Positions 29,933-45,522 of a stretch of 64,000 nucleotides of DNA are shown one piece after another. Source of the DNA: a bacterium (GTDB lineage: Bacteria; Myxococcota_A; Bradymonadia; UBA7976; UBA1532); the NCBI GenBank assembly GCA_030426085.1, contig JAUHYW010000051.1:1-64000 (forward strand), written 5' to 3'. How positions within the stretch are numbered: position 1 is the stretch's first letter; each line of letters starts with the position of its first letter. Below the pieces are notes generated by a model, which was not told the DNA's origin, did not search any database, and worked only from the letters and a program-made list of their open reading frames with translations. The translations under genes were made by a program, and so were the position numbers.

Positions 29933-29938
29933 TAGAGT
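29933..29938 (+). promoter_or_regulatory. Putative -10 element TAGAGT
   Basis: GATAGAGTGTGG lies 26 bases before the preferred GTG at 29964 of the aminotransferase gene. It belongs to the TAnnnTG group. The gene may also be read through from the methyltransferase 50 bases upstream. Confidence 0.3.
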
Positions 29939-29963
29939 GTGGTCGGACGACTGTGGGGGCGCC

Positions 29964-31148: not shown

Positions 31149-32220
31149 GCGGTCCGACTCCAGCGGGGCCATCCTGGTCACCGGCGCTGCCGGCTTCGTC
31201 GGCTCGACCCTCGCCCGCCGGCTGCGCAGGCGCTGGCCGACCCGCCCGCTGGTCGCCATCGACGCGCTGACCTATGCGGGCGACCGTCAAAGCCTCGCCC
31301 CCCTCGATGGCGATCCGGCGTTCACCTTCGTGCACGCCGACATCGCCGACCGCGAGGCGATGCGGGCGACCTTCGCCGCGCACCGCCCGCAGTGGGTCTT
31401 CCACCTGGCCGCCGAGACCCATGTCGACCGCTCGATCCTCGACCCGCTGGCCTTCGTGCGCACCAACGTCGAGGGCACCGCCTCGCTGCTGCACGCTGCC
31501 CGGCAGGCCTGGGGCGAAGGCCGCGACCCGCGCTTCGTGATGGTCTCTACCGACGAGGTCTACGGCGCGCTGGGGCCGACCGGCGCCTTCCGAGCCGACT
31601 CGCCGCTCGACCCGAGCAGCCCCTACTCGGCGTCCAAAGCAGGGGCCGATCTACTGGCCCTGGCCTGGCACCGGACCTACGGCCTGCCGGTCGTGGTGAC
31701 CCGCTGCTCGAACAACTACGGCCCGCGGCAGTTCCCCGAGAAGCTGATCCCGGTGGTGGTCGGGCGAGCGCTGGCCGGTGAGGTCGTGCCGGTCTATGGC
31801 ACCGGCGACAACGTGCGGGATTGGATCCACGTCGACGACCACGCCGACGGGCTGATCGCCGCCGCCGAGCGCGGCGCGCCGGGCGCGGTGTACTGTTTCG
31901 GGGCCGACAACGAACAGCAGAACCTGGCGCTGGTGCACCGCATCCTCGACGCGGTCGACGGCCTCACCGGCCGCGATGTGGGCGCCAGCCGGGCGCTGGT
32001 GCGATTCGTCACCGACCGCCCGGGGCACGACTTCCGCTACGCCATCGACGCCGACGAGACCCGGCGCGCCCTGGGCTGGGCCCCCCGGGTGTCCTTCGCC
32101 GAGGGCCTGGCCGCGACGGTGCGCTGGTTCATCGACCACGCCGACTGGTGCCGCCGACGACGTGAGGCGGCGAGGCGCTTCGAGGAGGTGTGGTACAGCC
32201 GCCGGGAGGCCGGATCATGA
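31141..32220 (+). CDS. rfbB: dTDP-glucose 4,6-dehydratase
   Basis: 359 residues from GTG at 31141, preceded by GGGAGG. ILVTGAAGFVGSTLA is the NAD-binding motif. The active site shows VSTDEVYGALG, with the Asp-Glu pair and catalytic Thr, and SPYSASKAGADLL with the Tyr-x-x-x-Lys. HLAAETHVDRSI is the RfbB signature. It makes dTDP-4-keto-6-deoxyglucose, the branch point for rhamnose and for deoxyamino sugars. The gene overlaps its neighbours at both ends (8 bases upstream, ATGA downstream). Codon use already looks less GC-biased than the flanks. Confidence 0.95.
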   Translation: MPERSDSSGAILVTGAAGFVGSTLARRLRRRWPTRPLVAIDALTYAGDRQSLAPLDGDPAFTFVHADIADREAMRATFAAHRPQWVFHLAAETHVDRSILDPLAFVRTNVEGTASLLHAARQAWGEGRDPRFVMVSTDEVYGALGPTGAFRADSPLDPSSPYSASKAGADLLALAWHRTYGLPVVVTRCSNNYGPRQFPEKLIPVVVGRALAGEVVPVYGTGDNVRDWIHVDDHADGLIAAAERGAPGAVYCFGADNEQQNLALVHRILDAVDGLTGRDVGASRALVRFVTDRPGHDFRYAIDADETRRALGWAPRVSFAEGLAATVRWFIDHADWCRRRREAARRFEEVWYSRREAGS

Positions 32221-33134
32221 GTCCCGAACCCCCCCCGAAGACCCGGGGCATCCTGCTAGCCGGCGGCCGGGGCACCCGGCTCTATCCGATGACCACGGTG
32301 GTCGGCAAGCACATGCAGCCGATCTACGACAAGCCAATGATCTACTACTCGCTGACCACCCTGCTGCTGGCCGGGATCCGCGAAGTGCTGGTCATCAGCT
32401 CGCCCGAAGACCTGCCTCACCTGCGCGGGCTGCTTGGGGACGGGGCGAAGTGGGGGGTCGACCTGAGCTACGCGGTGCAGCCCGAGCCGCGGGGCATCGC
32501 CGAGGCCCTGGTCATCGGCGAGCCGTTCATCGGCGACGACCGGGTGCTGTTGATGCTCGGCGACAACATCATCTACGGCGGCCTCGACTTCCTGCGACGC
32601 GCGGTGGCAGAGCCGGCCGACGGGGCGACGATCTTCGTCTACCAAGTCAAGGATCCCACCGCGTACGGGGTGGTCGAGTTCGACGAGCGCCTGCGGGCCA
32701 TCTCGTTGGAAGAGAAGCCCGCAGAGCCCCGCTCGTCGTGGGCGGTGGTCGGGATCTACCTCTACGGCCCCGAGTGCGCGCAGCGGGCGCGCACGCTGAA
32801 GCCGTCGGGTCGCGGCGAGTTGGAGGTCACCGACCTCAACCGGACCTACCTCGACGACGGCCGCCTCAGCGTGCGCCGCCTCGGCCGCGGCGTCGCTTGG
32901 TTCGACACGGGCACCCCGGAGAACCTGCTCGAGGCGAGCAACTTCGTGCGCGCGATCGAGACCCGCCAGGGGCTGATCATCGGCAGCCCCGAAGAGGCAG
33001 CCTACCACGCCGGATTCTGTTCGCTGGCCCGGTTCGAATCCAACGTCCGGGGTATGCCCCACTCACCCTATCGCGCGTGCCTCGAACGGGTGCTGCGCGA
33101 AGAGCGGGCCGAGCTGCGCTCGAGACGCGAGTGA
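32217..33134 (+). CDS. rfbA: Glucose-1-phosphate thymidylyltransferase
   Basis: 305 residues. The ATG at 32217 overlaps the rfbB stop. An upstream ATG would only add residues read through rfbB. GILLAGGRGTRLYPMT is the nucleotidyltransferase signature, followed by KHMQPIYDKPMIYYSL, LMLGDNIIYG, SLEEKPAEPRSSWAVVGIYLY and WFDTGTPENLLEASNF, all typical of RfbA/RmlA. It makes dTDP-glucose from glucose-1-phosphate and dTTP, the first step of the pathway. It converges on the minus-strand glycan genes with only 9 bases between, and no terminator is seen there. Confidence 0.95.
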   Translation: MSPEPPPKTRGILLAGGRGTRLYPMTTVVGKHMQPIYDKPMIYYSLTTLLLAGIREVLVISSPEDLPHLRGLLGDGAKWGVDLSYAVQPEPRGIAEALVIGEPFIGDDRVLLMLGDNIIYGGLDFLRRAVAEPADGATIFVYQVKDPTAYGVVEFDERLRAISLEEKPAEPRSSWAVVGIYLYGPECAQRARTLKPSGRGELEVTDLNRTYLDDGRLSVRRLGRGVAWFDTGTPENLLEASNFVRAIETRQGLIIGSPEEAAYHAGFCSLARFESNVRGMPHSPYRACLERVLREERAELRSRRE

Positions 33135-33143
33135 TGGCCCGGC

Positions 33144-34094
33144 TCACGACCGACCGTGACCGCCAGCCGCCGCCAGCCGCCGCAGGGTCTCGCCGACACC
33201 CGTGGTCAAGTCCCCGCTCGGGGTGAAGCCCGCCGACCGGATACGGGCGTCGCATACGTCGTACGAGAGCTGGTTCATGATGCGGGCGTCGACGAGTTCG
33301 ACCATCACGTCGGGCACGGTCGCCCGGATGGCCTCGACCACGTCGTGCACGGTGTGGTTGGCGGTGAGCACGTTGTACACGCGTCCGTCGAAGAGACGCC
33401 GCTCCACGATGTGGGCCACCGCCGCCACCGCGTCTCGCAGGTCGAGGTAGGGCCGCTTCTGGCCGAGCGCGGTGCGCCACACCGTCAGCGGGTGGCCGAA
33501 GGTGGCCTGCCAACAGAACTTGTTGACCGCGGTGTGAAAGCGCATACCCGGCGAGAAGCCGAAGATGGTGCCGAAACGGCAGACGACGTGCTCCAGCCCG
33601 GACGCCTCCGCCAGCGCCGCCAACGCGCGCTCTTCGCTCAGCTTGATCTCGGCGTAGGGCGACTGCGGCGCCAGCTCGTCGGGGCGGCACGCCTCGTCGA
33701 CAACGTCCGCCTGGGTGCCGTAGACGCTGGTCGACGAGGGAAAGACGAGCCCCGCCCCCACCTTCGCGGCCGCTTCTGCCACCCGCCGGGTGCCGCCCAG
33801 GTTGACCCGCTCGGTCTCTGCCCGGCGCTCGAAGCTGCGCGGGGCGTCGGTGAGCGCGGCCAAGTGTACCACCGCGTCGACGCCCTCGAAGAGCGGCTCG
33901 AGCGGATCGCAGGTGACGTCGGCCTCGTGGAAGATGCACCCGGGCGGCAGGTCGAAGAGCGAGCAATAGCGCTGGGTCGACAGATCGTCGATCAGCACCA
34001 GTTCGGCCCCCAAGCGCGTGGGCAGGGTCCGGACGAGCGCGGAGCCGATGTGGCCCAGAGCGCCGGTGATCGCCAGCGTCGTGCGGCCGCTCAC
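33144..34094 (-). CDS. NAD-dependent sugar epimerase/reductase (extended SDR)
   Basis: 316 residues from GTG at 34094, which overlaps the previous stop as GTGA. LAITGALGHIGSALVRTL is the dinucleotide motif (GxxGxxG). The catalytic region has FPSSTSVYGT and SPYAEIKLSEE, giving the Ser and the Tyr-x-x-x-Lys. VVHLAALTDAPRSF is the usual third strand. It belongs to the extended SDR family that epimerises or reduces nucleotide sugars. As no RmlD is obvious, this or the next SDR could be the 4-keto-reductase for the locus sugar. It is the last gene of the minus-strand operon. Confidence 0.88.
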   Translation of the reverse strand: MSGRTTLAITGALGHIGSALVRTLPTRLGAELVLIDDLSTQRYCSLFDLPPGCIFHEADVTCDPLEPLFEGVDAVVHLAALTDAPRSFERRAETERVNLGGTRRVAEAAAKVGAGLVFPSSTSVYGTQADVVDEACRPDELAPQSPYAEIKLSEERALAALAEASGLEHVVCRFGTIFGFSPGMRFHTAVNKFCWQATFGHPLTVWRTALGQKRPYLDLRDAVAAVAHIVERRLFDGRVYNVLTANHTVHDVVEAIRATVPDVMVELVDARIMNQLSYDVCDARIRSAGFTPSGDLTTGVGETLRRLAAAGGHGRS

Positions 34095-35071
34095 GACCCC
34101 TCCTGCGGGCGATGCTCGCGGAACCATGCGCCGGTGCGGGCCAGCCCGTCGCACAGCCCGATCGTGGGTCGCCAGCCCAGCGCGCTCCACGAGCGGCGGC
34201 AGTCGAGCCGGGCGTGACCTACGTCGATCGCCGCGCGGCCGGCAGGCCAGTCGACCAGCGTGACCTCGCCGCCGATGCGCGCGGCGATGGCCCGGGCGGC
34301 GTCGACTACCGCGACGTGCTCCGGGTGACCGACCACCGTCACCTCGCCCCGGGTCGAGCGCCGAAGCCCGACCCGGACGAGCCCCTCGACCGCGTCGGCG
34401 ACGTGCACGATGTTTCGCTGCTGGGTACCCGGCCGGAAGACCGTCAAGCGCTCACCGCGTAGCGCTCGTCCGATGAACCAGCCGAGGAACGACAGCCCCG
34501 GGTCGTGCACCGCCATGCGCGGCCCATAGACGTTGGGCAGCCGCGTCGCGCTCACCTCGAGGCCGTGGCAGTGGGCGTAGATAAGCGCGGTGCGTTCGGC
34601 GAGCATCTTGTGCGCCGAGTAGAGCTCCACCGGCTGCTGGGGATGCCCTTCGTCGGCGACGGCGTCGCCCGTGGGTCCGAGCTGGGTGGTGGTGCCGACG
34701 TGGACCATCGTCGCCGTGGGGTTCACCCGACGCAGCGCCTCGAGCATCGTCGTGGTGCCGGAAGCGTTGATCGACAGGTTCTCGAGTGGCGCCTTCAGCG
34801 AGCGAGCGTGGGCGGTGGTCGCCGCGCAGTGGAAGACCAGATCGACGCCGTCCAGCGCCGCCTCGACCGCCGCCGAGTCGCGGATGTCACCCACGCGCCG
34901 CTCGACGGCGAGCCCGTCCAGGTTGCGCGGGTCGTGGCCGGTGCCCGCCAGCCCGATGTCTAGGCTGCGAACCGCCCCCCCTTCGGCGAGGCAGGCGGCG
35001 GCCAGGTTGCTGCCGATGAAGCCCTCGCCGCCGGTGATCAGGATCCGGCGGGCGGCCAGCCGCCGACTCAT
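34091..35071 (-). CDS. NAD-dependent sugar epimerase/dehydratase (extended SDR)
   Basis: 326 residues. The ATG at 35071 overlaps the preceding stop as ATGA, and an upstream extension is a shadow. ILITGGEGFIGSNLAAACL is the cofactor motif. VHVGTTTQLGPTG stands in place of the usual S/T-S/T-VYG strand, and VELYSAHKMLAER supplies the Tyr-x-x-x-Lys. So the active Tyr and Lys are kept, but the neighbouring segment is unusual. TRLPNVYGPRM and VHVADAVEGLVRVG are family features. A role in modifying a nucleotide sugar is expected. It is distinct from, not a duplicate of, the SDR downstream of it. Confidence 0.88.
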   Translation of the reverse strand: MSRRLAARRILITGGEGFIGSNLAAACLAEGGAVRSLDIGLAGTGHDPRNLDGLAVERRVGDIRDSAAVEAALDGVDLVFHCAATTAHARSLKAPLENLSINASGTTTMLEALRRVNPTATMVHVGTTTQLGPTGDAVADEGHPQQPVELYSAHKMLAERTALIYAHCHGLEVSATRLPNVYGPRMAVHDPGLSFLGWFIGRALRGERLTVFRPGTQQRNIVHVADAVEGLVRVGLRRSTRGEVTVVGHPEHVAVVDAARAIAARIGGEVTLVDWPAGRAAIDVGHARLDCRRSWSALGWRPTIGLCDGLARTGAWFREHRPQEGS

Positions 35072-36189
35072 CGCCCGACCACCGCGCGCACGCCAGCGAT
35101 CACCCGGTCGAGATCGGCCTCGGACATGTTCAGCGCGCACGGCAGGGTCACCGCCCGGTCGCTGATGTCGTACGCAACCGGGTTGAGCGGCCGGTGACTG
35201 GCCTCGAGGCCATAGCACGGCTGGCTCGACAGCGGCCGGAAGAAGCCCCGCGCAGGCACGCCGTGGGCCCGCAGGGTGGCCACGGCGGCGTCCTGGTCGA
35301 GCCCGAAGGCGCGCTCGAATACCACCGACGTGGCCCAGGCGCCGTTGATGCCGCCGGGCGGCTCCACGTTGAGCGTCAGCCCCTCGATGTCAGCCAGCCC
35401 GTCGCGGAAGCGCCGCAGGTGGTGCCGCTTGCGGTCGATGATGGCCTCGATGCGCCTGAACTGAGCCCGGCCGATGGCCGCCTGGATGTTGGACGGAGTG
35501 TACTTGAACGAGACCTCATCGATCTGATAGGTGCGCTGGCGGTTGCGGCCGTGATCGCGCAGGAACATGCAGCGGTCCCACAACGCCGGGTCGTCGACGA
35601 GCAGCATCCCGCCCTCGCCCGTGGTCAGCGTCTTGGTGCGATGGAAGCTGAAGACCGAGCCGACCCCGAACTTGCCCGCGCGCACGCCGCGGTAGACCGA
35701 GCCCAAAGCCTCGGCGGCGTCTTCGATGAGGTGCAGCCGGTGCTTCTCGGCCAGCGCGGCCAGCGCGGTCATGCGCGGCATGTTGCCGTAGAGGTCGACG
35801 GCGATGATGGCCCTCGTCCGTGGGGTGATGCGGGCCTCGGCTGACGCCGGGTCGATGCACCAACCCTCGTCCACATCGCAGAACACCGGGCTGGCGCCGG
35901 CGTGGGTGACCGGCGCCGACGAGCCGATCCATGTGCACTCGGGCAGCAGCACCTCGTCACCCGGACCGACGCCCAGGCCCATCAACAGCAGGTGGATGGC
36001 CGAGGTGCAGTTGGGGGTCATGACACCGTAGCCCCGGCCGTGCCAGGCGGCGAAGTCGGCTTGAAATGCCTCGACGTGGGTGTAGTCATACCACCCGTCA
36101 CGCATGGCGGCAGCCACGAAGGCCACGTCGTCCTCGGTGATCCAGGGTCCGGCGTTGTAGATGGACCGGTCGGACGCTCCGCCTTTCAC
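35068..36189 (-). CDS. DegT/DnrJ/EryC1/StrS sugar aminotransferase
   Basis: 373 residues, start overlapping the previous stop as ATGA. PLP Lys186 lies in SFHRTKTLTTGEGGM. The paired Asp is in HLIEDAAEALGSVYRG, and VLLPECTWIGSSAPVTHAGA is the substrate-loop region. The HRTK-TLTTGEGG form is the one found in perosamine-synthase-like (C4) aminotransferases. It differs from the SFYPTKNLGALGDGG type encoded at 36653-37786, so the locus carries two chemically different aminotransferases on this strand plus one on the other. The product is predicted to be an amino-deoxy sugar nucleotide. Confidence 0.92.
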   Translation of the reverse strand: MKGGASDRSIYNAGPWITEDDVAFVAAAMRDGWYDYTHVEAFQADFAAWHGRGYGVMTPNCTSAIHLLLMGLGVGPGDEVLLPECTWIGSSAPVTHAGASPVFCDVDEGWCIDPASAEARITPRTRAIIAVDLYGNMPRMTALAALAEKHRLHLIEDAAEALGSVYRGVRAGKFGVGSVFSFHRTKTLTTGEGGMLLVDDPALWDRCMFLRDHGRNRQRTYQIDEVSFKYTPSNIQAAIGRAQFRRIEAIIDRKRHHLRRFRDGLADIEGLTLNVEPPGGINGAWATSVVFERAFGLDQDAAVATLRAHGVPARGFFRPLSSQPCYGLEASHRPLNPVAYDISDRAVTLPCALNMSEADLDRVIAGVRAVVGR

Positions 36190-36656
36190 GAATGCACCTC
36201 GAGCGCCCAGTCGAAGTCGATATCCGGGTGGTCGAGCGGCAGCTTCTCGACATCGTCGGGGTCATAGACGTTGTTCTGCAGGTACATCAGGCTGGCCGGG
36301 CCCTGGAGGCAGCGGCAGCCGTGAGCCACGCCGACCGGCACCTTGACCAGCCGCGCCGGCTGGTGGTCACCCAGCAGCATCTCGGCGGTGGCCTTGTGGG
36401 TCGGCGAGTCGGGGCGCAGGTCGCACAGGCCGAGCCGCACGACACCCGCGGCGACGTACCACCAGTCGATCTGCTCGCGATGCAGGTGCCATGCCTTGAT
36501 GACGCCGGTGTACATGAGCGAGTGGCTGAACTGGGCGACGCCCTCGGCAAACAGCGGTAGGGCGGTCCGGGCGAGCTCGCGGAAGAAGCCCCGCTCGTCA
36601 CGGTGGGTCACCAACTCGGCGATCTCGACGCCGGGCATGTCGCGGGGGTCGATCAT
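36186..36656 (-). CDS. RmlC-like cupin (dTDP-sugar 3,5-epimerase family)
   Basis: 156 residues from the ATG at 36656, ATGA-coupled at both ends. The opening THRDERGFFRELAR matches the DxRGxF start of RmlC. AWHLHREQIDWWYV holds a histidine in the place of the catalytic RGLH, and GVVRLGLCDLRPDSPT, PVGVAHGCRCL and DHPDIDFDW follow the family order. At 156 residues it is shorter than RmlC (about 180) and closer to the small sugar cupins. It could be a 3,5-epimerase, a 3-epimerase or a 3,4-ketoisomerase of dTDP-4-keto-6-deoxyglucose. The neighbouring C3-type aminotransferase makes the ketoisomerase option worth testing. Confidence 0.83.
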   Translation of the reverse strand: MIDPRDMPGVEIAELVTHRDERGFFRELARTALPLFAEGVAQFSHSLMYTGVIKAWHLHREQIDWWYVAAGVVRLGLCDLRPDSPTHKATAEMLLGDHQPARLVKVPVGVAHGCRCLQGPASLMYLQNNVYDPDDVEKLPLDHPDIDFDWALEVHS

Positions 36657-37786
36657 GGGTCGTGGTCCTCCGGGTGTCTCTCGATGTCTTGGAAGAAGTC
36701 GCCGATTGCTTCGATGACCCGGTCCTGCTCGGCGATGCCCAGCCCGGGGTGCATCGGGAGCGACAGCACCTCGGCGCAGGCCCGCTCGGTCACTGGCAGG
36801 GCGCTGCCGTCCCTCCAAGCCGGGTGCCGGTGAGCAGGCAGTGGGTAGTGCACCCCCGGACCGACCCCGGCCGCTCGCAGGTGGCCCGCCAGGGCCCCCC
36901 GATGCGCCGTGCGCACGACGTAGAGGTGCCAGGCGTGACCGGCCTTCGGAGCCACGACCGGCAGCTTCAGGGGCACGTCACGCAGCTCTCGTGCGTAGCG
37001 CGCGGCCAGGGCGCGGCGGCAGGCGATCTCACCGTCGAGATGCTTCAGCCCGACCCGCAGAATCGCCGCCTGCAATGGATCGAGGCGGCTGTTGACGCCC
37101 AGCTCGTGGCTCACCCGATCGGCGTCCCAGCCATAGGTCCGCAGCCGGCGGATGCGCGCGGCCAGAGCCGCATCGTCGGTGGCGACCAGCCCCCCGTCGC
37201 CCAGGGCGCCGAGGTTCTTGGTGGGGTAGAAGCTGTAGCAGGCGGCCCGGCCCCACCCGCCGACCGGCCGCCCGCGCCAGGTGGCCCCGTGGGCCTGGGC
37301 ACAGTCCTCGATGAGCGTCACCTCGTGGGCCCGGCACCACGCGAGCAGGCGGTCGAGGTCGATCGGGTGACCGTAGAGGTGGACCGCGACCACCGCCCGG
37401 GTCTTCTCGGTCAGCGCGCCGTCGAGGGCGTCGAGGTCGAGCAGCAGGTGAGTCGGCTCGACATCGACGAAGCGGGGGGTGGCCCCGGCCATCGAGATCG
37501 CGGCGACGGTGGCCACGGCGGTGTGGGCCACCGTGATCACCTCGTCCCCCGGGCCGATATCACAGGCGGTCAGCGCCAGGCGCAAGGCGTCGGTGCCGTT
37601 GCCGACGCCGACCCCGTGGGCCCGGCCGCTCCAGGCGGCGAACTCGGCCTCGAACCCCTCGACTTCGGGGCCGCCGATGTAATAGCCGCTGTCGAGCACC
37701 CGCTGGATGGCGGCGTCGACCTCGACCCGGTGCGCCCGGTAGCGGGCGCCCGGATCGGCGAAGCCCACGGTCAGTGCGCGGCTCAT
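36653..37786 (-). CDS. Sugar 3-aminotransferase, FdtB/DesV type
   Basis: 377 residues from the ATG at 37786, which overlaps the previous stop (ATGA). A GTG two codons upstream is less likely. PLP Lys190 is in SFYPTKNLGALGDGG, the form typical of FdtB, TylB and DesV enzymes, which aminate C3 of dTDP-3-keto-6-deoxyhexoses. VITVAHTAVATVAAISMAGA and LIEDCAQAHGATWRG complete the DegT core. VDVEPTHLLLDLDALD is also typical of that group. Its neighbours are a small cupin and a C-methyltransferase, the gene set expected for a branched 3-amino-3,6-dideoxy sugar. Confidence 0.93.
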   Translation of the reverse strand: MSRALTVGFADPGARYRAHRVEVDAAIQRVLDSGYYIGGPEVEGFEAEFAAWSGRAHGVGVGNGTDALRLALTACDIGPGDEVITVAHTAVATVAAISMAGATPRFVDVEPTHLLLDLDALDGALTEKTRAVVAVHLYGHPIDLDRLLAWCRAHEVTLIEDCAQAHGATWRGRPVGGWGRAACYSFYPTKNLGALGDGGLVATDDAALAARIRRLRTYGWDADRVSHELGVNSRLDPLQAAILRVGLKHLDGEIACRRALAARYARELRDVPLKLPVVAPKAGHAWHLYVVRTAHRGALAGHLRAAGVGPGVHYPLPAHRHPAWRDGSALPVTERACAEVLSLPMHPGLGIAEQDRVIEAIGDFFQDIERHPEDHDP

Positions 37787-38997
37787 CGCCACCCGACCCG
37801 GGGAACGTATGTCAGGAACCGCCCGCCCGCCGCCCGCCAGGCGGCCTCCTTGGCCATGATCTCTTCGGCGTGGTTCCAGGCGAAGAGCAGCGCGTGGCGT
37901 GGTGGGTCGGCGCAGAATTCGGCATAAGACCGCACCGGGATGTGGCTGCCGGGTGTGTAGCGGCCGATCTTGGTAGGGGTGACGTCGCTGATATAGGCCA
38001 GATCGTCGGGCCCCAGGCCGCAGTAGTTGAGCACGGTGGTACTCTTCGAGGTGGCGCCATAGCCCACGAGCGGGCCGTCGGTCTCGCGCACCGCTTCGAC
38101 GAGGGCCTCTTTCGAGGCGGCGACCGCCGCGGCGAAGGTGTCGTAGGTCGAAGGTTCACCCAGCCCGCGGGTGGCCTCTTCGGCAGCGAGGGCGCCGACC
38201 CGCGGGTGGATCGGGCGGGCGCCGCGGTGGGCGAGGGTGAAGCGCACCTCGCCCCCGTGCACCGGCTGACGCTCGGCGTCGATCACGTCGAGCCCGTGGC
38301 GCGCGGCGAGCCCGACGACGGCGGTCAGCGAGAAGTAGTAGACGTGCTCGTCATAGATCTGGTCGTAAGCCGTGCGGGCCAGGATGTCCCCGATATACGG
38401 ATCTTCGAAGGCAAAGACGCCCTTCGGGCCTAGCAACCGGCGCACCCCGTCGAAGACCGCGTCGAGGTAGGGGATGTGACAGACGACGTTGGCCCCGAGA
38501 ATGGCGTCGGCCGGTCCACGGGCGCCGCGGATCTCGTCGGCCAACTCGGCGGTGAAGAAACGGTCGTCGACGTCGAGGCCCAGCCTGCGGGCGGCTTCGG
38601 CCACGTTGCCCGAGGGCTCGACGCCCAGGTGCCGGCCGGCGCCGAAGTGGCGCAGCATGATGCCGTCGTTGCAGCCGAGTTCGACGACGAAGGGATCGTC
38701 GGGCAACCAGCGGGCCTTCACGTCGGCGGCGAACCGGCCGAAGTGGCGGGCCATGCCGACGGAGGTCGACGAGAAGAAGGCGTAGTCGGCGTTGAACATC
38801 GCCGCCTCGTCGACCACGTCGACCAGTTGCACCATGGCGCAGGCCGGGCACATCGCCAATTCGAGCGGGAAGAAGCGCTCGGCGGCCAGCCGCTCGGGGG
38901 TCAACTGCTCGGGGGTGAGAAAGCCATTGGCGATGGGCATGGGCCCGAAGCCGACCACCGGGTGCAGGGCGCTCTCACACAGGCGGCAATGGCTCAT
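37783..38997 (-). CDS. Nucleotide-sugar C-methyltransferase (TylC3/KijD1-like)
   Basis: 404 residues from the ATG at 38997, with ATGA overlaps at both ends. The N-terminal zinc module has Cys4-x2-Cys7 and Cys50-x2-Cys53 (CRLC, CPAC), as in C-methyltransferases that act on dTDP-keto-sugars. The SAM domain shows VVELGCNDGIMLRHF (104-118) and GVEPSGNVAE. QIYDEHVYYFSL is the conserved substrate-side segment with a Tyr-x-x-His-type motif. The C-terminal domain (about 270-404) has LVGYGATSKSTTVLNYCGL, the Methyltransf_14 signature. It should add a methyl branch to a keto carbon, probably C3, of the deoxysugar. Confidence 0.93.
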   Translation of the reverse strand: MSHCRLCESALHPVVGFGPMPIANGFLTPEQLTPERLAAERFFPLELAMCPACAMVQLVDVVDEAAMFNADYAFFSSTSVGMARHFGRFAADVKARWLPDDPFVVELGCNDGIMLRHFGAGRHLGVEPSGNVAEAARRLGLDVDDRFFTAELADEIRGARGPADAILGANVVCHIPYLDAVFDGVRRLLGPKGVFAFEDPYIGDILARTAYDQIYDEHVYYFSLTAVVGLAARHGLDVIDAERQPVHGGEVRFTLAHRGARPIHPRVGALAAEEATRGLGEPSTYDTFAAAVAASKEALVEAVRETDGPLVGYGATSKSTTVLNYCGLGPDDLAYISDVTPTKIGRYTPGSHIPVRSYAEFCADPPRHALLFAWNHAEEIMAKEAAWRAAGGRFLTYVPRVGWR

Positions 38998-41543
38998 GAG
39001 CCTCCCTCCCCGCGTTCGGCGTATGTGCGCGCGTAGCCGTAGCGCCTCGCGACGGGGCCGACCTCGGCCCAGCAGCGAGCGTTCATGTCGGCGCTCCAGT
39101 CGAGAGGGTGGGGGAAGTCGCCGAACCTCTGGGCGTTGAGCTTGCGGCCCAGGATCTCGACGGCTCGGCCGTGGTCGAACCCGTCGAGGCCCAAGAAGCC
39201 GAAGACCGCCTCGATCTCGTCGGGGCCGGCGACGAGGTCCTCGAAACGCACAACCTTGATCCGATTCTCGCCGATGCGGCCTCGGATGCGTTCGATGTGG
39301 CGATAGGTCTCGGCCCACAGCCAGCTCACCTGCTCGAATTGCGGCCGGGAGAGCCACCTCGGACGCCGTGGATCGTCACCGCGAGGGCGCAGCCGGCCGC
39401 TCTCCCAGGCGCCCTGAGCCCGATAGTAGCCCCGGCGCATGCCCGAGCGCACGAACTCGCGCGGGTCGCGCACCAGGATCAGGAAGCGGGCGTCGGGCAC
39501 GTCCTCGGCGATGACGTCGCAGAACGGCGTCATGTTGTGGTCGGTCTCGCCGTGGATCACCCCTGCGTCCCATGCCTCGCGGATGATGCGCCCGCGGCCG
39601 GTCCAGAAGGTCGACCGGCGGTCGATGTCGCCCCAGTAGGCATGCAGCGTCTCCATGATCATAGTGGGCTCGGGGTGGTGCCACACCTTGGCGTTGGTGG
39701 CCATCTCGAGGAGTCTGGCGAGGGTCTGGGTGCCCGAGCGCCCCGTTGACATCACGAAGAACGCCGGGTGGCCGTCGGGTGCGCTGCGCTCGGGCGGCGG
39801 TGGCCGCTCGACGGCGGGGGTGACGGCCGCGCACGCCCGCCGGGTGGCGTCGAGCAGCGTGGCCTCGGCCCCCCGAGCGAAGGGGGAGGGCAGGGTGTAG
39901 ACCAGATGCGAGACGTGAGCCTCGTAGCCCCCTTGTTCGACCATCTCGTCGGCGGGCACGTAGGCTTCGAGGCCGTTGGTGTACCCCAGCACGAAGAGCG
40001 CGTCGTGGCGGGTGGCGAGCAACCGCATTCGGCGGGCGGTGATCGCCATCGGCTCACCGGGCACCAGCGCGAAGGCCACCTCGCCGACCGCCAGGATGCC
40101 CAGCTCCAGTTCGAAGGTCTCGGGGCGCTCGTCGCCGTAGCGCCGGGCCACGGCGGCGGCCCAGTGGCGCAGCATCGCCGGAGGCACCCCTCGATTGTGG
40201 GGCAGGGTGAACGCCTCTTCGCCGATGGGCCCCCCTTGCAGCGGCAGGTTCATCGTCAAGCGTCCGGCGTCCAGCGGGCCCCGGATCGGGGTCAGCGCGG
40301 TCGCGGCGTCGGCGACGGCCTCGGCCATGCGCTCACCGAGGGTGCGGGCATCCTCCGGGCGGCCGATCCAGCCGACGCGCCCGCCCTCGCGGACGCCCTG
40401 CTTGATATCGCCGGCGGCCCCCTGCAGGAAGATCACCCCGTCGGCGGCGCCCGTGTCGACCAGCGTAGCCCGTAGCGCGCCGGGGTAGTCGGCGCCGATC
40501 AACGCCGCCGGACCCGAACCGGTGGGGTGACAGCCGTGGTTGATCATCAACAGGCGCCGCTCGCCGATCGTCACCGCCAGGAGCGGGGTCTCGGTCTCGT
40601 AGTGGGCCTTGGGGGCGGGAGCCATCTCGATCCGGCCGTTCACCGCCCGCCGCCGGTTGAAACCGATGCTGACGGCGGCCCGGCCCCAGGCCAGCTCGGC
40701 GGGGGTCAGTTCGAGATACAGCCGGGGCAGCAGCTTGGTGACGTGGTCGACGACGCCCTGGGCGAAGACCGCGTCGAACCGGCCCAGCCCGGGCACCGCG
40801 TGGCTCACCGTGCCCGGCCCGTAGTGGGTGTGCGAGGCGTTGAGCACCACCGCGGCGGGGTCGATGCCCCACTCGGCGGCCCGATGGCGGATGAGCCGCA
40901 CGAGCTGGGCGTCGAAGCCGAAGATGTCGGCCCCGACGAAGAGCGCCCGGCTGCCATAGCCGTCCTCGAGCAGCAGCGCCTGTAGCTTCAGACGGCTGTC
41001 GACGATGTCGGTGGTCCGCGGCGGGCCGAAGTACCCCTGAAGCTCGACCGCGCCAGCGGGGGTGATGTCGACCTCGGCGAAGGCTGCGCGATAGGGAACC
41101 GGCGGTAGATCGGCGACCGCGCGCGACTTGCCGAAGAGCCCGCGGGCCGTGTCGAGCTCACCCATGGCCTCGGTCAACCGGGCCATCTCATCGAGCAAGC
41201 GCGCGGTCTCGCCGCCGATGGCCAGCCCCTGCTCGAGGTAGCGGGTGGCCTCGGCCAGCCGGTTGGCGCCCCGGGTGATCGCCGACAGGTTGAGCAGGGC
41301 GTCGACCGGGGTGTCACCGATGACCACCGCCTTGAGCAGCAGCCGCTCTGCCCGCTCGGTGTCGCCGGCCCGGTGGGCCATCACCGCGAGGTTGTTCAGC
41401 GCGCCGCCGCAGCCGGGGTCGAGGGCGAGGGCCCGACGGAACAGGCGCCCGGCCTGCTCGAGGTCGCCCCGGGCGAAGAGGCGCTCGCCGTCGGCGACGA
41501 GGCGCACCGCCTGCTGCTCACGCTGCGTACGGATGGGGGTCAT
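38994..41543 (-). CDS. TPR - neutral-ceramidase-like - sulfotransferase fusion
   Basis: 849 residues, with an ATGA overlap to the next gene. Residues about 10-145 are tetratricopeptide-like helices. Residues about 151-575 follow the neutral/alkaline ceramidase fold: FAEVDITPAG, NASHTHYGPG (His238), INHGCHPTG (His339), PGEP (Glu497) and EAYVP (Tyr528). These match the zinc ligands of the Pseudomonas enzyme. The serine nucleophile position (NAGNLSP in that enzyme) is AAGDIK here, so Ser is replaced by Lys381. Residues about 592-845 are a PAPS sulfotransferase: 5'-loop STGRSGTQTLARL (599-611), and VRDPREFVRSG (691-701) for the 3'-phosphate. The protein may cleave or transfer an N-acyl group and sulfate the same glycan or lipid. 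No signal peptide was seen, so it acts in the cytoplasm. Confidence 0.88.
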   Translation of the reverse strand: MTPIRTQREQQAVRLVADGERLFARGDLEQAGRLFRRALALDPGCGGALNNLAVMAHRAGDTERAERLLLKAVVIGDTPVDALLNLSAITRGANRLAEATRYLEQGLAIGGETARLLDEMARLTEAMGELDTARGLFGKSRAVADLPPVPYRAAFAEVDITPAGAVELQGYFGPPRTTDIVDSRLKLQALLLEDGYGSRALFVGADIFGFDAQLVRLIRHRAAEWGIDPAAVVLNASHTHYGPGTVSHAVPGLGRFDAVFAQGVVDHVTKLLPRLYLELTPAELAWGRAAVSIGFNRRRAVNGRIEMAPAPKAHYETETPLLAVTIGERRLLMINHGCHPTGSGPAALIGADYPGALRATLVDTGAADGVIFLQGAAGDIKQGVREGGRVGWIGRPEDARTLGERMAEAVADAATALTPIRGPLDAGRLTMNLPLQGGPIGEEAFTLPHNRGVPPAMLRHWAAAVARRYGDERPETFELELGILAVGEVAFALVPGEPMAITARRMRLLATRHDALFVLGYTNGLEAYVPADEMVEQGGYEAHVSHLVYTLPSPFARGAEATLLDATRRACAAVTPAVERPPPPERSAPDGHPAFFVMSTGRSGTQTLARLLEMATNAKVWHHPEPTMIMETLHAYWGDIDRRSTFWTGRGRIIREAWDAGVIHGETDHNMTPFCDVIAEDVPDARFLILVRDPREFVRSGMRRGYYRAQGAWESGRLRPRGDDPRRPRWLSRPQFEQVSWLWAETYRHIERIRGRIGENRIKVVRFEDLVAGPDEIEAVFGFLGLDGFDHGRAVEILGRKLNAQRFGDFPHPLDWSADMNARCWAEVGPVARRYGYARTYAERGEGGS

Positions 41544-41550
41544 GCCTCTC

Positions 41551-43038
41551 CTATCGACCTTCCGCGGCCGGAGTCGAGCTGGGTTCCGGCCCGCGCAGCG
41601 CCGCGCGGCAGTCGTTGATGGCCCCCCTCAGGCCGGCGTGGCCCGGGCGCAGAAGCGCCGCCTCTTCGAGACGCTGAAGCACCTGCACCGTGCGGCCCCG
41701 CTCGAGCATGTCGTCCGCCGGGGCCTCGCCCTCACCGCCCCAACGCACGAAGCGCAGGCCTCGGCCGACCAGCGCGACGGCCCGCTCGATCTCGGCGTCG
41801 ACCCGTGCACCCAGACGGGCGCCGAGGATGTCGATAGTGCGCTGTGCAGCGACGCCCCGGACCGCGCGATCGAGAGGCATGCGCGAGAGCAGCTCGATGT
41901 GGGCGAAGATCAGGCGGACCATCGGGAGGGTCAGCCCCTCTTGCAGGAACTCGGGGTGGTGCGAACCGATGACGTCGACGTTCTGCTCGTCGTAGGTCTT
42001 CTTGCGCGGCCGGGTCAGCCCCCGGGTGAACAGCACCTCGGGCAGCTGGGCGATGTGGCTGCGCAGGGCCAGCTCGGCGAGGAAGAGGTTGTCGTAAGAG
42101 CGGTAGAGCCGGTGCTGGAAGAGCGCCCTGATCTGCTCGAGTACCGACCTGCGATAGAGGCCGTACCACGCGTTGCACATGCTCAACGTGTCGATGACAT
42201 GCAGGTAGCGGGCGACCGGGTCGGGGTTGGTGGTCGAGATGTCATCGTCGGCGACGCCCAGCGGGGTGCCGTCGGCGCTGACGAGCTGCGTCCGGCTGTA
42301 GACCATGCCCACGTCGGGGGCCTCGGCCATGCGGGCCAGGGCTTTCTCGACGAAGGTCGGGTGGTGGCGGTCGTCGTAGGCGGCCCACATGTAGAACGGA
42401 GCCGTCGAGGACTGCATGACCCGAACGTTGTTCTTGGTGCCGACGTAGCGGATGTCCTCGCCGGTGCGCACGTAACGGATGCGGTCGTCCTGCGCCCGAT
42501 AGCGCTCGACCGTCTCCCGGGTGAGCCGGTCATTGCCCGTGTCGAGAATGATCAGCTCGAGGTCGCCGAAGGTCTGGGCCAGAACTGCCTCGATGACCCC
42601 GGCGAACATGTCCCCCCCGCTGTAGACCGGCAGGCCGACCCCGACGACCGGGTCGCGGCCGGTGTGGACGGCGGGGGACAGCCGCGGCGGCGGGCGGCGC
42701 TCGGTGAGCGTCCACGGGGCGGGGATCTTCGACTCGCGGGTCAGCGACAGGCAACGCCCGAGGTACAGCCGGGCCTCGAGCGTGTCGCCGCGGTCGAGCG
42801 CGAGCGCCGCCAGGGTCAACAGGGGGAGCGCCCCGTTGTCGGCGAAGATCGAGGCCTTGAGCAGCAGCGCCTCGGCCTCGTCGAGTTCGCCGGCGGCGTA
42901 CGCCAGCTGCCCCGCCGTCAGGTGCGCCTCACCGTGGGTCGGTGCGGCCGCGAGCACCTCGCCCAGCGCGTCGATGGCGTCGCCGATACGCCCCTCTTCG
43001 AGCGCGGTCCGGGTCGGGGTGAGCCGCTCGTCGGTCAT
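41551..43038 (-). CDS. TPR-containing GT2 glycosyltransferase
   Basis: 495 residues. Residues about 10-97 are tetratricopeptide-like repeats resembling those of the fusion gene that follows after 7 bases (both contain AExLLLKA-type helices). The GT-A domain spans about 131-330: VVGVGLPVYSGGDMFAGVIE, LELIILDTGNDRLT, KNNVRVMQSSTAPFYMWAA and then YDDRHHP, with Asp222-Asp223 as the metal site. CNAWYGLYRRSVLEQI is the acceptor-side region. The C-terminal 150 residues are helical. It is the only clear glycosyltransferase in the locus. It should add one sugar, but donor and acceptor are not readable. Coupled upstream by ATGA. Confidence 0.9.
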   Translation of the reverse strand: MTDERLTPTRTALEEGRIGDAIDALGEVLAAAPTHGEAHLTAGQLAYAAGELDEAEALLLKASIFADNGALPLLTLAALALDRGDTLEARLYLGRCLSLTRESKIPAPWTLTERRPPPRLSPAVHTGRDPVVGVGLPVYSGGDMFAGVIEAVLAQTFGDLELIILDTGNDRLTRETVERYRAQDDRIRYVRTGEDIRYVGTKNNVRVMQSSTAPFYMWAAYDDRHHPTFVEKALARMAEAPDVGMVYSRTQLVSADGTPLGVADDDISTTNPDPVARYLHVIDTLSMCNAWYGLYRRSVLEQIRALFQHRLYRSYDNLFLAELALRSHIAQLPEVLFTRGLTRPRKKTYDEQNVDVIGSHHPEFLQEGLTLPMVRLIFAHIELLSRMPLDRAVRGVAAQRTIDILGARLGARVDAEIERAVALVGRGLRFVRWGGEGEAPADDMLERGRTVQVLQRLEEAALLRPGHAGLRGAINDCRAALRGPEPSSTPAAEGR

Positions 43039-43805
43039 CGGAGCGACCGCCGCGACTTGGGGCGCTCAGGGGCGAAGGCCAGGTTGCACTTGCGATCGAG
43101 GCGGTGGCTCGGCGGGAAGTGGTCCATCGGCAGCGGCCCGCGTTCACCGAGGTAGGGGCAGTCGAGCAGCGAGCGGTAGATCAGCCGGTAGCCGAGCGCG
43201 GCCATGGCGCCGATCACCGCGCGGCGGTCGAAGAACCACACCGGGATCCGGGCACCGTAGTAGACCTGATGGGTGACGAAGGTCGGGATGTCGCCTGCGG
43301 TGAGCCCGGCCAGGACGAGCAGCCGAGGCTCGAGAGCGACGAAGCGGGCCAGCATGCCTCGCCAGTCGGCGACATAGTGCAGGCTGCTGGCGGCATGCAC
43401 CACGTCGAAGCGGCCGCTGGGCAGCGCGTCGTGGAAGGTCGGCCCGTCGGCGCCGAAGAGTTCGCGCCCCAGCGCGCAGACAGCCGTGGTCTCGACGACG
43501 TGCAGGTCGATCGCAGCGCCGGGCAGGCAGTCTTCCAACGTGGGATATAGCGCCCCGGCCCCCCCGCCGAAGTCGAGCACCGACAAGGGCTCTCCGCGGT
43601 CGACCAGCGGCGCGAGCAGCGCCGGCAGCGGCGAGGTGTCGGTCATGGTCGAGGGGTGCTCGCGGCCGACCGCAGCGCGGGCCGACTCGACCGCCTCGCG
43701 CTGCGCGGCGAGCCAGCGCTCGGAGTGGAAGGCCGCCGGGGTCTCGGGCGCCGGGGGGAAGACCTCGCCGATGCCATCCCAGATGCGGAGCGTGGCCTCA
43801 ATCAT
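43035..43805 (-). CDS. Putative methyltransferase, TIGR04325-like
   Basis: 256 residues, overlapping both neighbours (ATGA downstream, 8 bases upstream). The SAM site is SVLDFGGGAGALYPTL, followed by LHVVETTAVCALGRELF and FDVVHAASSLHYVADWRGML. YYGARIPVWFFDRRAV and the C-terminal HRLDRKCNLAFAP match the LIC12133/TIGR04325 group, small methyltransferases found only in polysaccharide loci. The N-terminus IWDGIGEVFPPAP is also typical. Its substrate is unknown. An O-methyl or N-methyl group on a surface sugar is expected. One of three methyltransferase-type genes in this operon. Confidence 0.85.
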   Translation of the reverse strand: MIEATLRIWDGIGEVFPPAPETPAAFHSERWLAAQREAVESARAAVGREHPSTMTDTSPLPALLAPLVDRGEPLSVLDFGGGAGALYPTLEDCLPGAAIDLHVVETTAVCALGRELFGADGPTFHDALPSGRFDVVHAASSLHYVADWRGMLARFVALEPRLLVLAGLTAGDIPTFVTHQVYYGARIPVWFFDRRAVIGAMAALGYRLIYRSLLDCPYLGERGPLPMDHFPPSHRLDRKCNLAFAPERPKSRRSLR

Positions 43806-44562
43806 GGAGCGCCCTCAGGTAGCCGCCGGGGTTGTTGGTAACCAGCAGCTTGGCCTCGAGGTCGGTGTCGACCGCGAACCGATCGTTCTCCTTCTGCCAC
43901 TCGACCAGCGCGGTGGCCGGGTTGTTGCCTTTGCCCCACGGACGCGGGCGCACCACCGAAGGCGGTTGGCGCTCGATGGTCGTGTCACCGCAGATCAGGT
44001 AGTGCCCCTTGCCCACGAAACCGGACCACGCTCGCAGTTCGGCGAGCACGTGGTCATGGGTGTGGTGCGAGTCGAGGATCACCAGCACGTCGCGGCAGTC
44101 ACCGACGATCTCCCGGACCTCGGCGACCGTCGCTGGATCGGTAGACGAGGTCCGCATGAGGTGCAGCCGCTCTGAGAGCGGGCCCCATCCATTGAGCCGC
44201 TCGAGCAGGTCGTCAGGCATGTAGATGTCGATGCCGATGATCTTCTCGCCGCCGAGCACCTGCATCAGCGTCGAGTAGAACAGCGTCGAGCCGCCCCAGG
44301 CCACGCCGCACTCGATGATGAAGCGGGGGCGGGTGCGGAAGAGAATCTCCTGGGTGGCGAAGAGGTCGCCGGGCACCTGCAAGCACGGCTCGCCGAGCCA
44401 TGTGGTCTGGTGCACCCAGTAGTACTCGCCGGCTCGGATCTTCACATCGAGCGCGTCGGCGAGCAGCTGTTCGTCGGCGGCCATGCGCCGGGCCTGGGCC
44501 TGACGCAGATCCTCGAAGGCCTCGCGGGTGTAGAGCTTCTTGTTCGCGTTCGGGTCGGGCAT
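43798..44562 (-). CDS. CmcI/cephalosporin-hydroxylase family O-methyltransferase-like protein
   Basis: 254 residues. RPRFIIECGVAWGGSTLFYSTLM is the family hallmark (read here in part), followed by IIGIDIYMPDD, LVILDSHHTHDHVLAELRAW and GHYLICGDTTIE. The LDSHHT element carries the metal-binding Asp-His of catechol-OMT-like folds. Despite the name, most members are SAM-dependent O-methyltransferases, including enzymes that methylate rhamnose in glycolipids. The gene overlaps the TIGR04325 gene by 8 bases. Predicted role: O-methylation of the locus glycan. Confidence 0.88.
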   Translation of the reverse strand: MPDPNANKKLYTREAFEDLRQAQARRMAADEQLLADALDVKIRAGEYYWVHQTTWLGEPCLQVPGDLFATQEILFRTRPRFIIECGVAWGGSTLFYSTLMQVLGGEKIIGIDIYMPDDLLERLNGWGPLSERLHLMRTSSTDPATVAEVREIVGDCRDVLVILDSHHTHDHVLAELRAWSGFVGKGHYLICGDTTIERQPPSVVRPRPWGKGNNPATALVEWQKENDRFAVDTDLEAKLLVTNNPGGYLRALHD

Positions 44563-44577: not shown

Positions 44578-45522
44578 TCAGGTGCCAGTGCGCGGTCGGG
44601 TCCGTGCTGCGGACGGTGCGAGCGCGTAGCCGTAGCGCTGCAGGTCGAGACCAACCCGATCGGCCAGCCGCCGGTTGCCGTCGGCGTAGCGCTCCGCGAT
44701 GCGGGCCTGCCACGCGGGGGTCATCCAGTCGCGCATCGCCGGGCCGCCCTCCAGCCAGCGGAGCCACAGGGAGTCGAGCCCGCCTCCGGCGGCACCGCTC
44801 GCCGGCATGAGCGCGGGCCACGCGCTGCGGATCCGGCTCCAGTTGTGGAGCCGGCGGCTGTAGCGACGACGTTCGCGGGGTCCGCCGAGCGCCCGCTCGA
44901 CCACGGCCCGCTCGACGCCTAGCAGTGCCCCCCAGCGGCCAGCGTAGGCCGCCGGATCGGTCAGCAGTTCTTCGTAGATCAACACCTCGACCCGCGAGAA
45001 GCGGGCGGCGTACAGGGCGACGAGCGCGTCGTAGTCGAAACCGCGCAGCGGGCCCATACGGGGGAAGCGCAGGCAGTGCTCCATCCACTCGTCGAAGCCG
45101 ACGAAGCGGCGCCAGTACCGTCGGGGCACACCCTTGAGGTAGGCCCCGTGGTTGACGTACCAGGACGCGATCGCCTGTCGCTGCTCACGCACCACAAGCA
45201 CCACGGTGGCCTCGGGCAGCAGTCGGGCCAGCCGATCTGCACAGACCGTCGGCAGCGGGCTTCGGCTGATGTCTTCGTTGGAGTAGACCATCACCCGCCC
45301 GGCCGCCTCGGCCCGCATCTCGGCGAAGGCGGCTGCGATGGCATCCAGCGGAGCGTAGAGGTCGTCCTCTTCGACCAGCGCGGTGAACAGCGGCGCCTGC
45401 TCGGTCCAGCCGGGGCCGTCCTCGCCCCGGTAGCAGATCGTGTCCCGGGCGGCGAAGAGGCGCCGTTGCAGGCTGGTCGAGCCCGTCTTGTTGGCGCCGA
45501 TGTGCAGCACGACTCGAGCCAT
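44578..45522 (-). CDS. Sulfotransferase family protein
   Basis: 314 residues from the ATG at 45522. GTG at 45528 overlapping the HEAT-gene stop (GTGA) is an equally usable start two codons upstream. The PAPS 5'-loop is HIGANKTGSTSLQRRL (7-22), of the KTGST type, unlike the GRSGT type of the fusion gene. ATVVLVVREQRQAIASWYVN supplies the Arg/Ser pair that binds the 3'-phosphate. VLIYEELLTDPAAYAGRW resembles the late YE/D-L segment. Two unrelated-looking sulfotransferases in one locus predict at least two sulfations or two acceptors. No PAPS synthesis genes are in the window. First glycan gene of the minus operon. Confidence 0.88.
   Translation of the reverse strand: MARVVLHIGANKTGSTSLQRRLFAARDTICYRGEDGPGWTEQAPLFTALVEEDDLYAPLDAIAAAFAEMRAEAAGRVMVYSNEDISRSPLPTVCADRLARLLPEATVVLVVREQRQAIASWYVNHGAYLKGVPRRYWRRFVGFDEWMEHCLRFPRMGPLRGFDYDALVALYAARFSRVEVLIYEELLTDPAAYAGRWGALLGVERAVVERALGGPRERRRYSRRLHNWSRIRSAWPALMPASGAAGGGLDSLWLRWLEGGPAMRDWMTPAWQARIAERYADGNRRLADRVGLDLQRYGYALAPSAARTRPRTGT

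Follow-up and report, generated by a model that had tools for sequence, protein, structure and literature searches.

A TPR, ceramidase-like and sulfotransferase fusion protein encoded in a glycan operon of a marine Myxococcota bacterium

The fusion gene and its operon

The window, a 64,000-nucleotide stretch of DNA from a marine Myxococcota bacterium, carried on its minus strand a frame of 849 aa that began with an ATG and had no internal stops (Table 1). When the encoded protein was searched against Pfam, Sulfotransfer_3 (PF13469; 49 bits, cut-off 27) and the TPR families TPR_10 (32.5 bits), TPR_2 (31.9) and TPR_19 (30) scored above cut-off; Ceramidase_alk (PF04734) reached 27.9 bits, slightly below its cut-off of 32.1. 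An AlphaFold2 model of the protein (pLDDT 81, pTM 0.82) revealed a neutral-ceramidase fold, with low confidence in active-site loops 340-346 and 378-391. Over residues 147-577 this part matched PDB 2zws from Pseudomonas aeruginosa (Z 30.4, rmsd 3.7, 391 residues aligned), and it also matched human ASAH2 (4wgk; Z 28.9). The TPR part of the model resembled the SPY TPR (Z 18.8) and the sulfotransferase part TPST2 (Z 16.9). Foldseek/VIA matches, taken part by part, were to OGT/SPY TPR, neutral ceramidase and tyrosylprotein sulfotransferase.

The protein is a genuine three-domain fusion. The initial annotation had read three domains in one frame and had called for a structure model; Pfam, the model and Foldseek/VIA agreed with that reading, the ceramidase-like part being recognised by fold, with its Pfam score below cut-off. 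The initial annotation had also known of no described fusion of ceramidase-like and sulfotransferase domains, and a literature search likewise found no description of a TPR-ceramidase-like-sulfotransferase fusion.

The genes surrounding the fusion were annotated with sugar functions, consistent with the earlier description of the locus as a glycan operon. The DegT, 4,6-dehydratase and nucleotidyltransferase genes of the plus-strand block were all retained in genome G001; in G007 the last two immediately precede the fusion. The operon showed no N-acyltransferase.

Table 1. Genes, domains and codons of the glycan operon in the window.
Feature	Position	Strand	Basis
DegT aminotransferase	29937-31148	plus	part of 29937..33134 block
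Sugar 4,6-dehydratase	31141-32220	plus	part of 29937..33134 block
Sugar nucleotidyltransferase	32217-33134	plus	part of 29937..33134 block
NAD-dependent sugar epimerase/dehydratase	33144..34094	minus	annotation
NAD-dependent sugar epimerase/dehydratase	34091..35071	minus	annotation
DegT/DnrJ sugar aminotransferase	35068..36189	minus	annotation
RmlC-like sugar isomerase/epimerase	36186..36656	minus	annotation
DegT/DnrJ sugar aminotransferase	36653..37786	minus	annotation
Sugar C-methyltransferase (Methyltransf_13/14)	37783..38997	minus	annotation
TPR - ceramidase-like - sulfotransferase fusion gene, 849 aa	38994..41543	minus	ORF, Pfam, relatives, model, structure match
PAPS sulfotransferase domain, residues 594-840	39024..39764	minus	Pfam, loop residues, structure match
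Ceramidase-like zinc hydrolase domain, residues 148-574 (fold to 577)	39822..41102	minus	Pfam, 2zws profile alignment, structure match, multiple alignment
Tyr528 codon, zinc ligand (chain residue 448 of 2zws)	39960..39962	minus	profile and multiple alignment
Glu497 codon, zinc ligand (chain residue 411 of 2zws)	40053..40055	minus	profile and multiple alignment
Lys381 codon, amidase-motif Ser position	40401..40403	minus	superfamily alignment
His339 codon, second zinc-ligand His	40527..40529	minus	superfamily multiple alignment
His238 codon, zinc ligand (chain residue 97 of 2zws)	40830..40832	minus	profile and multiple alignment
TPR module, residues 7-144, eight helices (four repeats)	41112..41525	minus	Pfam, model, SPY TPR match
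TPR - GT2 glycosyltransferase	41551..43038	minus	GT2 homologous to C-terminal GT2 of L052
Methyltransferase, TIGR04325 family	43035..43805	minus	annotation
RMNT_CmcI-type O-methyltransferase	43798..44562	minus	42% identical homologue in L052 locus
Second, stand-alone sulfotransferase of operon	44578..45510	minus	annotation

Relatives of the fusion and their loci

A search of other genomes, as proposed in the initial annotation, yielded seven more full-length copies in two phyla. Five came from Myxococcota relatives (40-86% identity), including a congeneric genome whose copy was 86% identical, and two from Desulfobacterales MAGs, in which a GT2 glycosyltransferase or GSCFA domain follows in the same chain. 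As the genome contigs were scanned with two exact peptide patterns, there are at least this many carriers. Their ceramidase-like domains all fell into one clade (support 100/99). In a sample of 395 genomes from the second phylum only Desulfamplus itself was found, and the clade is therefore rare; a plasmid collection held an isolated ceramidase-like domain only and no fusion. The dN/dS ratio was 0.15 for the ceramidase-like part, 0.23 for the sulfotransferase and 0.26 for the TPR, indicating that purifying selection was strongest on the ceramidase-like part. Conservation in the second phylum, there with a GT2 fused on, had been missed by the initial annotation.

In the Desulfobacterales homologue L052, TPR, ceramidase-like, sulfotransferase and GT2 domains form a single chain, and its C-terminal GT2 is homologous to the separate GT2 neighbour in the window (38% over 352 aa). 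Since both are joined in one chain in L052, this Rosetta-stone evidence indicates that the GT2 and the fusion work together. The L052 locus independently retained C-methyltransferase, RmlC-like, RMNT methyltransferase and DegT genes, and also contained a SunS-like GT-TPR; a flagellin gene lay on the same contig, approximately 9 kb from the fusion. The L057 locus encoded a Maf/PseD-like protein and a TPR-GT41, and a TPR-GT41 gene adjoined L053. In four genomes (G011, G004, G007 and G001) the next-best genome-wide TPR match of the fusion was a neighbour in the same locus.

The zinc site and the PAPS loops

Profile alignment equated H238, H240, E497, Y528 and Y540 with chain residues 97, 99, 411, 448 and 460 of 2zws, and superfamily alignment placed H339 and K381 in the second-His and amidase-motif Ser columns, respectively. 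These alignments upheld the zinc ligands named previously (His238, His339, Glu497 and Tyr528). H238, H240, R297, H339, E497, Y528 and Y540 were retained in all eight sulfotransferase fusions. The three Desulfamplus versions of the domain had lost zinc ligands (H339 replaced by Q, E497 by A or G), so the ceramidase-like domain can persist in the absence of the metal site. Desulfamplus magnetovallimortis, a cultured species, has no sulfotransferase part.

The amidase motif of the window protein was GDIKQG, not GDVSPN. In the human enzyme, Ser354 has been placed at the base of the pocket, where it positions Arg257 (review, PMC6952831). The Ser position was occupied by Lys in 10 of the 11 clade members and by Arg in the other. 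Among approximately 40 ceramidase-like domains the zinc shell was almost invariant and the Ser position held K, N, D, E, R, G, T or S; stand-alone proteins varied there as well, with Lys in L068 and L087. With a hypervariable Ser position and a fixed zinc shell across ceramidase-like proteins, Lys381 carries no special weight, and the earlier argument that the missing Ser signalled another chemistry was not supported. Lys381 as a unique catalytic novelty was rejected on the same grounds.

The 5' PAPS loop (FVMSTGRSGTQTL, residues 596-608) and the 3' PAPS loop (LVRDPREFVRSGMRR, residues 690-704) were intact, as first reported; S599, G601, R602, G604, T605, R692 and S700 were invariant in all eight fusions.

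Proposed function and comparison with known systems

No signal peptide, hydrophobic N-terminus or membrane segment was found in any of the eight fusions. PAPS chemistry requires a cytosolic location, and an APS kinase was present in seven of the eight carrier genomes. Flagellin_N scored above cut-off in every carrier searched, a set that left G011 outside; the match in G097 was weak and FlgL-like only. Within the window there was no flagellin, those of its own genome lying on other contigs, and in the own-genome flagellin loci (C11, C154 and C104) no window protein had a TPR-fusion relative. Flagellin-bearing genomes of the same family often had no fusion. The context points to cytosolic protein glycosylation, with flagellin as the probable carrier, because a signal peptide and an operon flippase or polymerase are missing, TPR modules are common to the neighbouring enzymes, and the Desulfobacterales loci hold flagellin (same contig, one locus), Maf/PseD-like and TPR-GT41 genes.

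The reading favoured here, tentatively and at slightly under an even chance, is a TPR-docked zinc de-N-acylase and sulfotransferase that tailors a C-methyl amino-sugar glycan, the carrier probably being flagellin. The fusion would be a soluble, cytosolic glycan-tailoring enzyme, with an N-terminal TPR as the docking site for its protein carrier or partner enzymes. Judged from its conserved zinc shell, the ceramidase-fold domain may act as a zinc amidohydrolase, cleaving off an N-acyl group with metal-bound water and without a catalytic Ser; the C-terminal domain, identified as a PAPS sulfotransferase, would transfer sulfate to the same glycan. This glycan would be a deoxy-amino sugar with C-methylation, which the neighbouring TPR-GT2 would attach and which would be O-methylated as well; flagellin, its likeliest carrier, would receive it in the cytosol, ahead of export, much as with the TPR-docked transferase FlmG. 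A shared TPR module might also bring glycosyltransferase, ceramidase-fold zinc sugar de-N-acylase and sulfotransferase to flagellin, as a modular cytosolic assembly line whose product is a sulfated C-methyl amino sugar; this is less likely than not. The earlier proposal of a TPR-held enzyme that acts on an N-acyl group and sulfates the same glycan remained plausible, and the zinc shell, PAPS loops and glycan context that it named were upheld; the argument from the missing Ser was not, and glycolipid as its substrate class gave way to protein glycosylation.

It is rather unlikely that the same chemistry serves a glycan on a lipid carrier or a surface polysaccharide (LPS, capsule or glycolipid) and not a protein. 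Nucleotidyltransferase, 4,6-dehydratase, DegT, RmlC-like and methyltransferase genes are the ordinary set of an O-antigen or glycolipid operon, and in Azospirillum a stand-alone ceramidase-like gene adjoins an oligosaccharide flippase; however, the annotated operon genes included no flippase, polymerase, ligase or ABC exporter and only one glycosyltransferase, and the Desulfobacterales loci carried the flagellin, SunS-like, GT41 and Maf-like protein-glycosylation genes. It is also unlikely that the ceramidase-like domain serves only as a binding module for glycan or protein, without catalysis, the sulfotransferase alone being active. The absence of the amidase-motif Ser and the Desulfamplus homologues, which keep the domain despite lost zinc ligands, would fit such a module, but the seven site residues are retained in every sulfotransferase fusion, the domain has the lowest dN/dS, and across the superfamily the Ser is dispensable and the zinc shell is not.

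Neutral ceramidases are the closest solved structures (Z about 30), but a true ceramidase whose substrate is a sphingolipid and whose sulfotransferase part yields a sulfatide-like lipid is very improbable given the sub-cut-off Pfam score, the lack of the GDVSPN motif, the cytosolic location and the operon genes that serve sugars. Ceramide or sulfatide metabolism was rejected, as no sphingolipid gene was among the annotated operon genes, the fusion has no signal peptide and the same genome encodes a separate ceramidase (239 bits to the family). A chance or assembly join of neighbouring genes is scarcely credible and was rejected: the myxococcal copies all come from draft metagenome assemblies, but the 86% identical congeneric copy and six others, independent and in two phyla, exclude a join or frameshift between the ceramidase-like and sulfotransferase parts, the domains form one clade and every part is under purifying selection.

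In the fusion, a neutral-ceramidase fold serves an intracellular glycan pathway and is physically coupled to sulfation, one relative adding a glycosyltransferase to the chain. Should the zinc domain prove to be a sugar de-N-acylase, a function would follow for a large set of Ser-less bacterial and archaeal proteins now named 'ceramidase'. Some Ser-less 'ceramidase' proteins adjoin sugar aminotransferases. TPR-programmed editing of protein glycans can also be tested with the fusion; the assembly line, if true, would put the neutral-ceramidase fold to its first sugar-directed use and would yield a sulfated glycan on a bacterial flagellin.

The fusion shares with neutral ceramidase (PF04734; 2zws, 4wgk) the fold, the His/His/Glu/Tyr zinc shell and the second-shell His, Arg and Tyr, but differs in its Pfam score, the lack of the GDVSPN Ser, its cytosolic location, its TPR and sulfotransferase partners and its sugar operon. 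It resembles PAPS sulfotransferases (PF13469) in both phosphate loops and an above-cut-off score; tyrosylprotein sulfotransferase is the nearest solved fold, but identity is about 15% and the fold is common to many sulfotransferases, so the match does not imply tyrosine sulfation. FlmG, a TPR and glycosyltransferase protein, modifies Caulobacter flagellins, which its TPR half binds (PMC7591256). The fusion may work likewise, by analogy only: both have an N-terminal TPR ahead of a glycan-modifying catalytic part and are cytosolic in a flagellated host, although the catalytic parts of the fusion are a zinc hydrolase and a sulfotransferase and its flagellin binding is putative. Stand-alone ceramidase-like proteins (L066 and L112; also L067 and L068), beside DegT and Gfo/Idh/MocA genes, are single domains without TPR or sulfotransferase, but belong to the same superfamily and, like the fusion, combine an intact zinc shell with the absence of a catalytic Ser.

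Domains, relatives and selection

The fusion gene is a genuine frame in an assembly of 178 contigs (10.1 Mb). As the initial annotation had proposed, a Pfam search of the full protein detected TPR repeats and Sulfotransfer_3; Ceramidase_alk was matched only below threshold. Comparison of an AlphaFold2 model (pTM 0.82, pLDDT 81) with solved structures matched each of the three parts to a known fold: residues 3-146 to the OGT/SPY-type TPR (Z 18.8), residues 147-577 to the Pseudomonas aeruginosa neutral ceramidase 2zws (Z 30.4) and residues 586-849 to tyrosylprotein sulfotransferase (Z 16.9).

The same full-length fusion was found in five relatives of the same order (G001, 86%; G011, 57%; G007, 56%; G004, 54%; and G013, 43%, with a shorter TPR part). 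In a scan of named genomes, in which Myxococcales MAGs were the named relatives of the window genome's family, it was also carried by two Desulfobacterales MAGs from a second phylum. These two proteins are longer, with C-terminal GT2 (locus L052) or GSCFA (locus L053; PF08885, 150 bits) domains following the TPR, ceramidase-like and sulfotransferase parts. Three Desulfamplus genomes encode the same ceramidase-like domain without the sulfotransferase; in D. magnetovallimortis it is preceded by GT2 and TPR parts and followed by approximately 370 further residues. A maximum-likelihood tree built from 41 ceramidase-like domains separated the eight fusions and three Desulfamplus homologues from the rest by a branch with 100/99 support. 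Comparison of the window's genome with its congener G001 gave dN/dS values of 0.15 for the ceramidase-like domain, 0.23 for the sulfotransferase, 0.26 for the TPR and 0.60 for the linker of 19 residues; selection acts on all three parts, most strongly on the ceramidase-like domain.

Coordinates of the features discussed
Feature	Position	Strand	Remarks
Fusion gene	38994-41543	minus	849 codons, ATG start
Operon	45510 to 33144	minus	contains fusion gene
DegT aminotransferase, 4,6-dehydratase, nucleotidyltransferase	29937-33134	plus	
Enoyl-CoA hydratase/isomerase-family gene	47297-48199	plus	fixed chromosomal neighbour of fusion locus
Desulfobacterales fusion	L053:2953-6594		GSCFA extension
Desulfamplus homologue	L057:8207-12466		GT2-TPR-ceramidase-like chain, ~370 further C-terminal residues
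Desulfamplus homologue	L056:9017-11485		
Desulfamplus homologue	L055:645-3170		
TPR-module gene near fusion	L049:13624-15321		
TPR-module gene near fusion	L050:12568-13203		
TPR-module gene near fusion	L051:9932-11008		joined to methyltransferase-like part
Ceramidase-amine oxidase fusion	G000:C95:53373-56747 (L046:3374-6748)	plus	window's genome, 1125-aa frame
Its counterpart	G001:C71:153554-156790		
Stand-alone ceramidase-like gene	L066:6772-9305		
Stand-alone ceramidase-like gene	L112:3230-6900		

The zinc site and the serine position

Profile alignment placed H238, H240, E497, Y528 and Y540 on 2zws chain residues 97, 99, 411, 448 and 460, and the superfamily alignment matched Lys381 with the serine of the amidase motif, confirming the residues listed in the initial annotation. 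An alignment of approximately 40 ceramidase-like domains showed near-invariance at both HxH histidines, at the second-His position and at the Glu and Tyr, whereas the serine position held S, T, N, D, E, K, R, G or other residues. Serine loss is therefore a general trait of the wider family, and the earlier suggestion that it signals another chemistry was not upheld, since loss alone does not imply one. It is compatible with ordinary zinc-water amide hydrolysis; a review of the human enzyme describes Ser354 as sitting at the pocket base, where it stabilises Arg257 (PMC6952831). We infer a putative catalytic activity for the window protein. Within the clade, 10 of 11 members have Lys at this position and one has Arg, a pattern suggestive of some local function. 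Two of the three Desulfamplus copies have lost His339 (to Gln) and all three Glu497 (to Ala or Gly); judged by these substitutions, they may be a pseudoenzyme form, perhaps inactive.

The probable sugar product and its proposed carrier

In the operon a second sulfotransferase gene, genes for RMNT-type and TIGR04325 methyltransferases and one for a TPR-GT2 protein precede the fusion; the remaining genes encode a sugar C-methyltransferase, an RmlC-like enzyme, two DegT aminotransferases and two epimerase/dehydratases that are NAD-dependent. The plus-strand genes contribute a further DegT aminotransferase, a 4,6-dehydratase and a nucleotidyltransferase. G001 keeps this gene order, and G007 largely does. 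In the L052 locus the C-methyltransferase (34%), the RMNT methyltransferase (42%), the DegT protein (43%) and the RmlC-like enzyme all have homologues; this locus also has a 4,6-dehydratase and nucleotidyltransferase of the CDP-glucose type, and a fused GT2 resembling that of the window (38% over 352 aa). From these gene families, the most likely product is a C-methylated deoxy-amino sugar that is O-methylated and sulfated. The enoyl-CoA hydratase/isomerase-family neighbour is kept in G001, G004 and G011 at 84-95% identity.

A lipid or a surface polysaccharide is the main rival to flagellin as carrier. Within the operon, no genes were seen that would serve membrane or export steps of glycan assembly, and signal peptides and TM segments were absent from all eight fusions. 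A flagellin gene lies at one end of the L052 contig, approximately 9 kb from the fusion and adjoined by a SunS-like GT-TPR gene; L057 adjoins a PseD-like protein (flagellin modification protein match, below the model's cut-off), and TPR-GT41 genes occur in the L057 locus and immediately before L053. Flagellin_N matches were present in all carriers searched, the sole match in carrier G097 being weak and possibly FlgL. In four Myxococcota carriers the fusion's next-best genome-wide TPR match was a neighbour at the same locus, which fits a shared docking module, and the TPR half of Caulobacter FlmG binds flagellins (PMC7591256). Taken together, these observations favour the fusion as a cytosolic tailoring enzyme of a flagellin glycan; because the window itself contains no flagellin gene, the flagellin step is one that we infer.

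The window's genome has a large flagellin set, with nine Flagellin_N matches (eight above 150 bits) on contigs C11, C154, C104 and C101, several of them in tandem on C11. The L049, L050 and L051 genes each carry a related TPR module and represent sets of TPR-tagged enzymes within one locus.

Other ceramidase-family genes and known systems

A second fusion in the window's genome places a strong neutral ceramidase domain (PF04734, 239 bits) ahead of its flavin amine oxidase part (PF01593, 179 bits). It is 88% conserved in G001, and other relatives match its ceramidase half only; from its domains, it could be a candidate for sphingosine release and oxidation of the sphingosine amine. Stand-alone ceramidase-like genes of haloarchaea and Myxococcota lie beside DegT and Gfo/Idh/MocA oxidoreductase genes (at L112 assigned by eye), an association that is looser in Azospirillum and Natronosalvus (L067, L068), where these genes are farther away. 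Such neighbours hint that the stand-alone branch may act on a sugar or cyclitol amide.

The fold and domain families of the TPR-bearing fusion are already known; no description of their combination was found in the literature searched. In contrast to neutral ceramidases, the window protein falls below the Pfam cut-off and lacks both the serine motif and a secretion signal, so that the name ceramidase should not be applied to it. Its ceramidase-fold, zinc-shell part is joined to a TPR part and a bona fide PAPS sulfotransferase.
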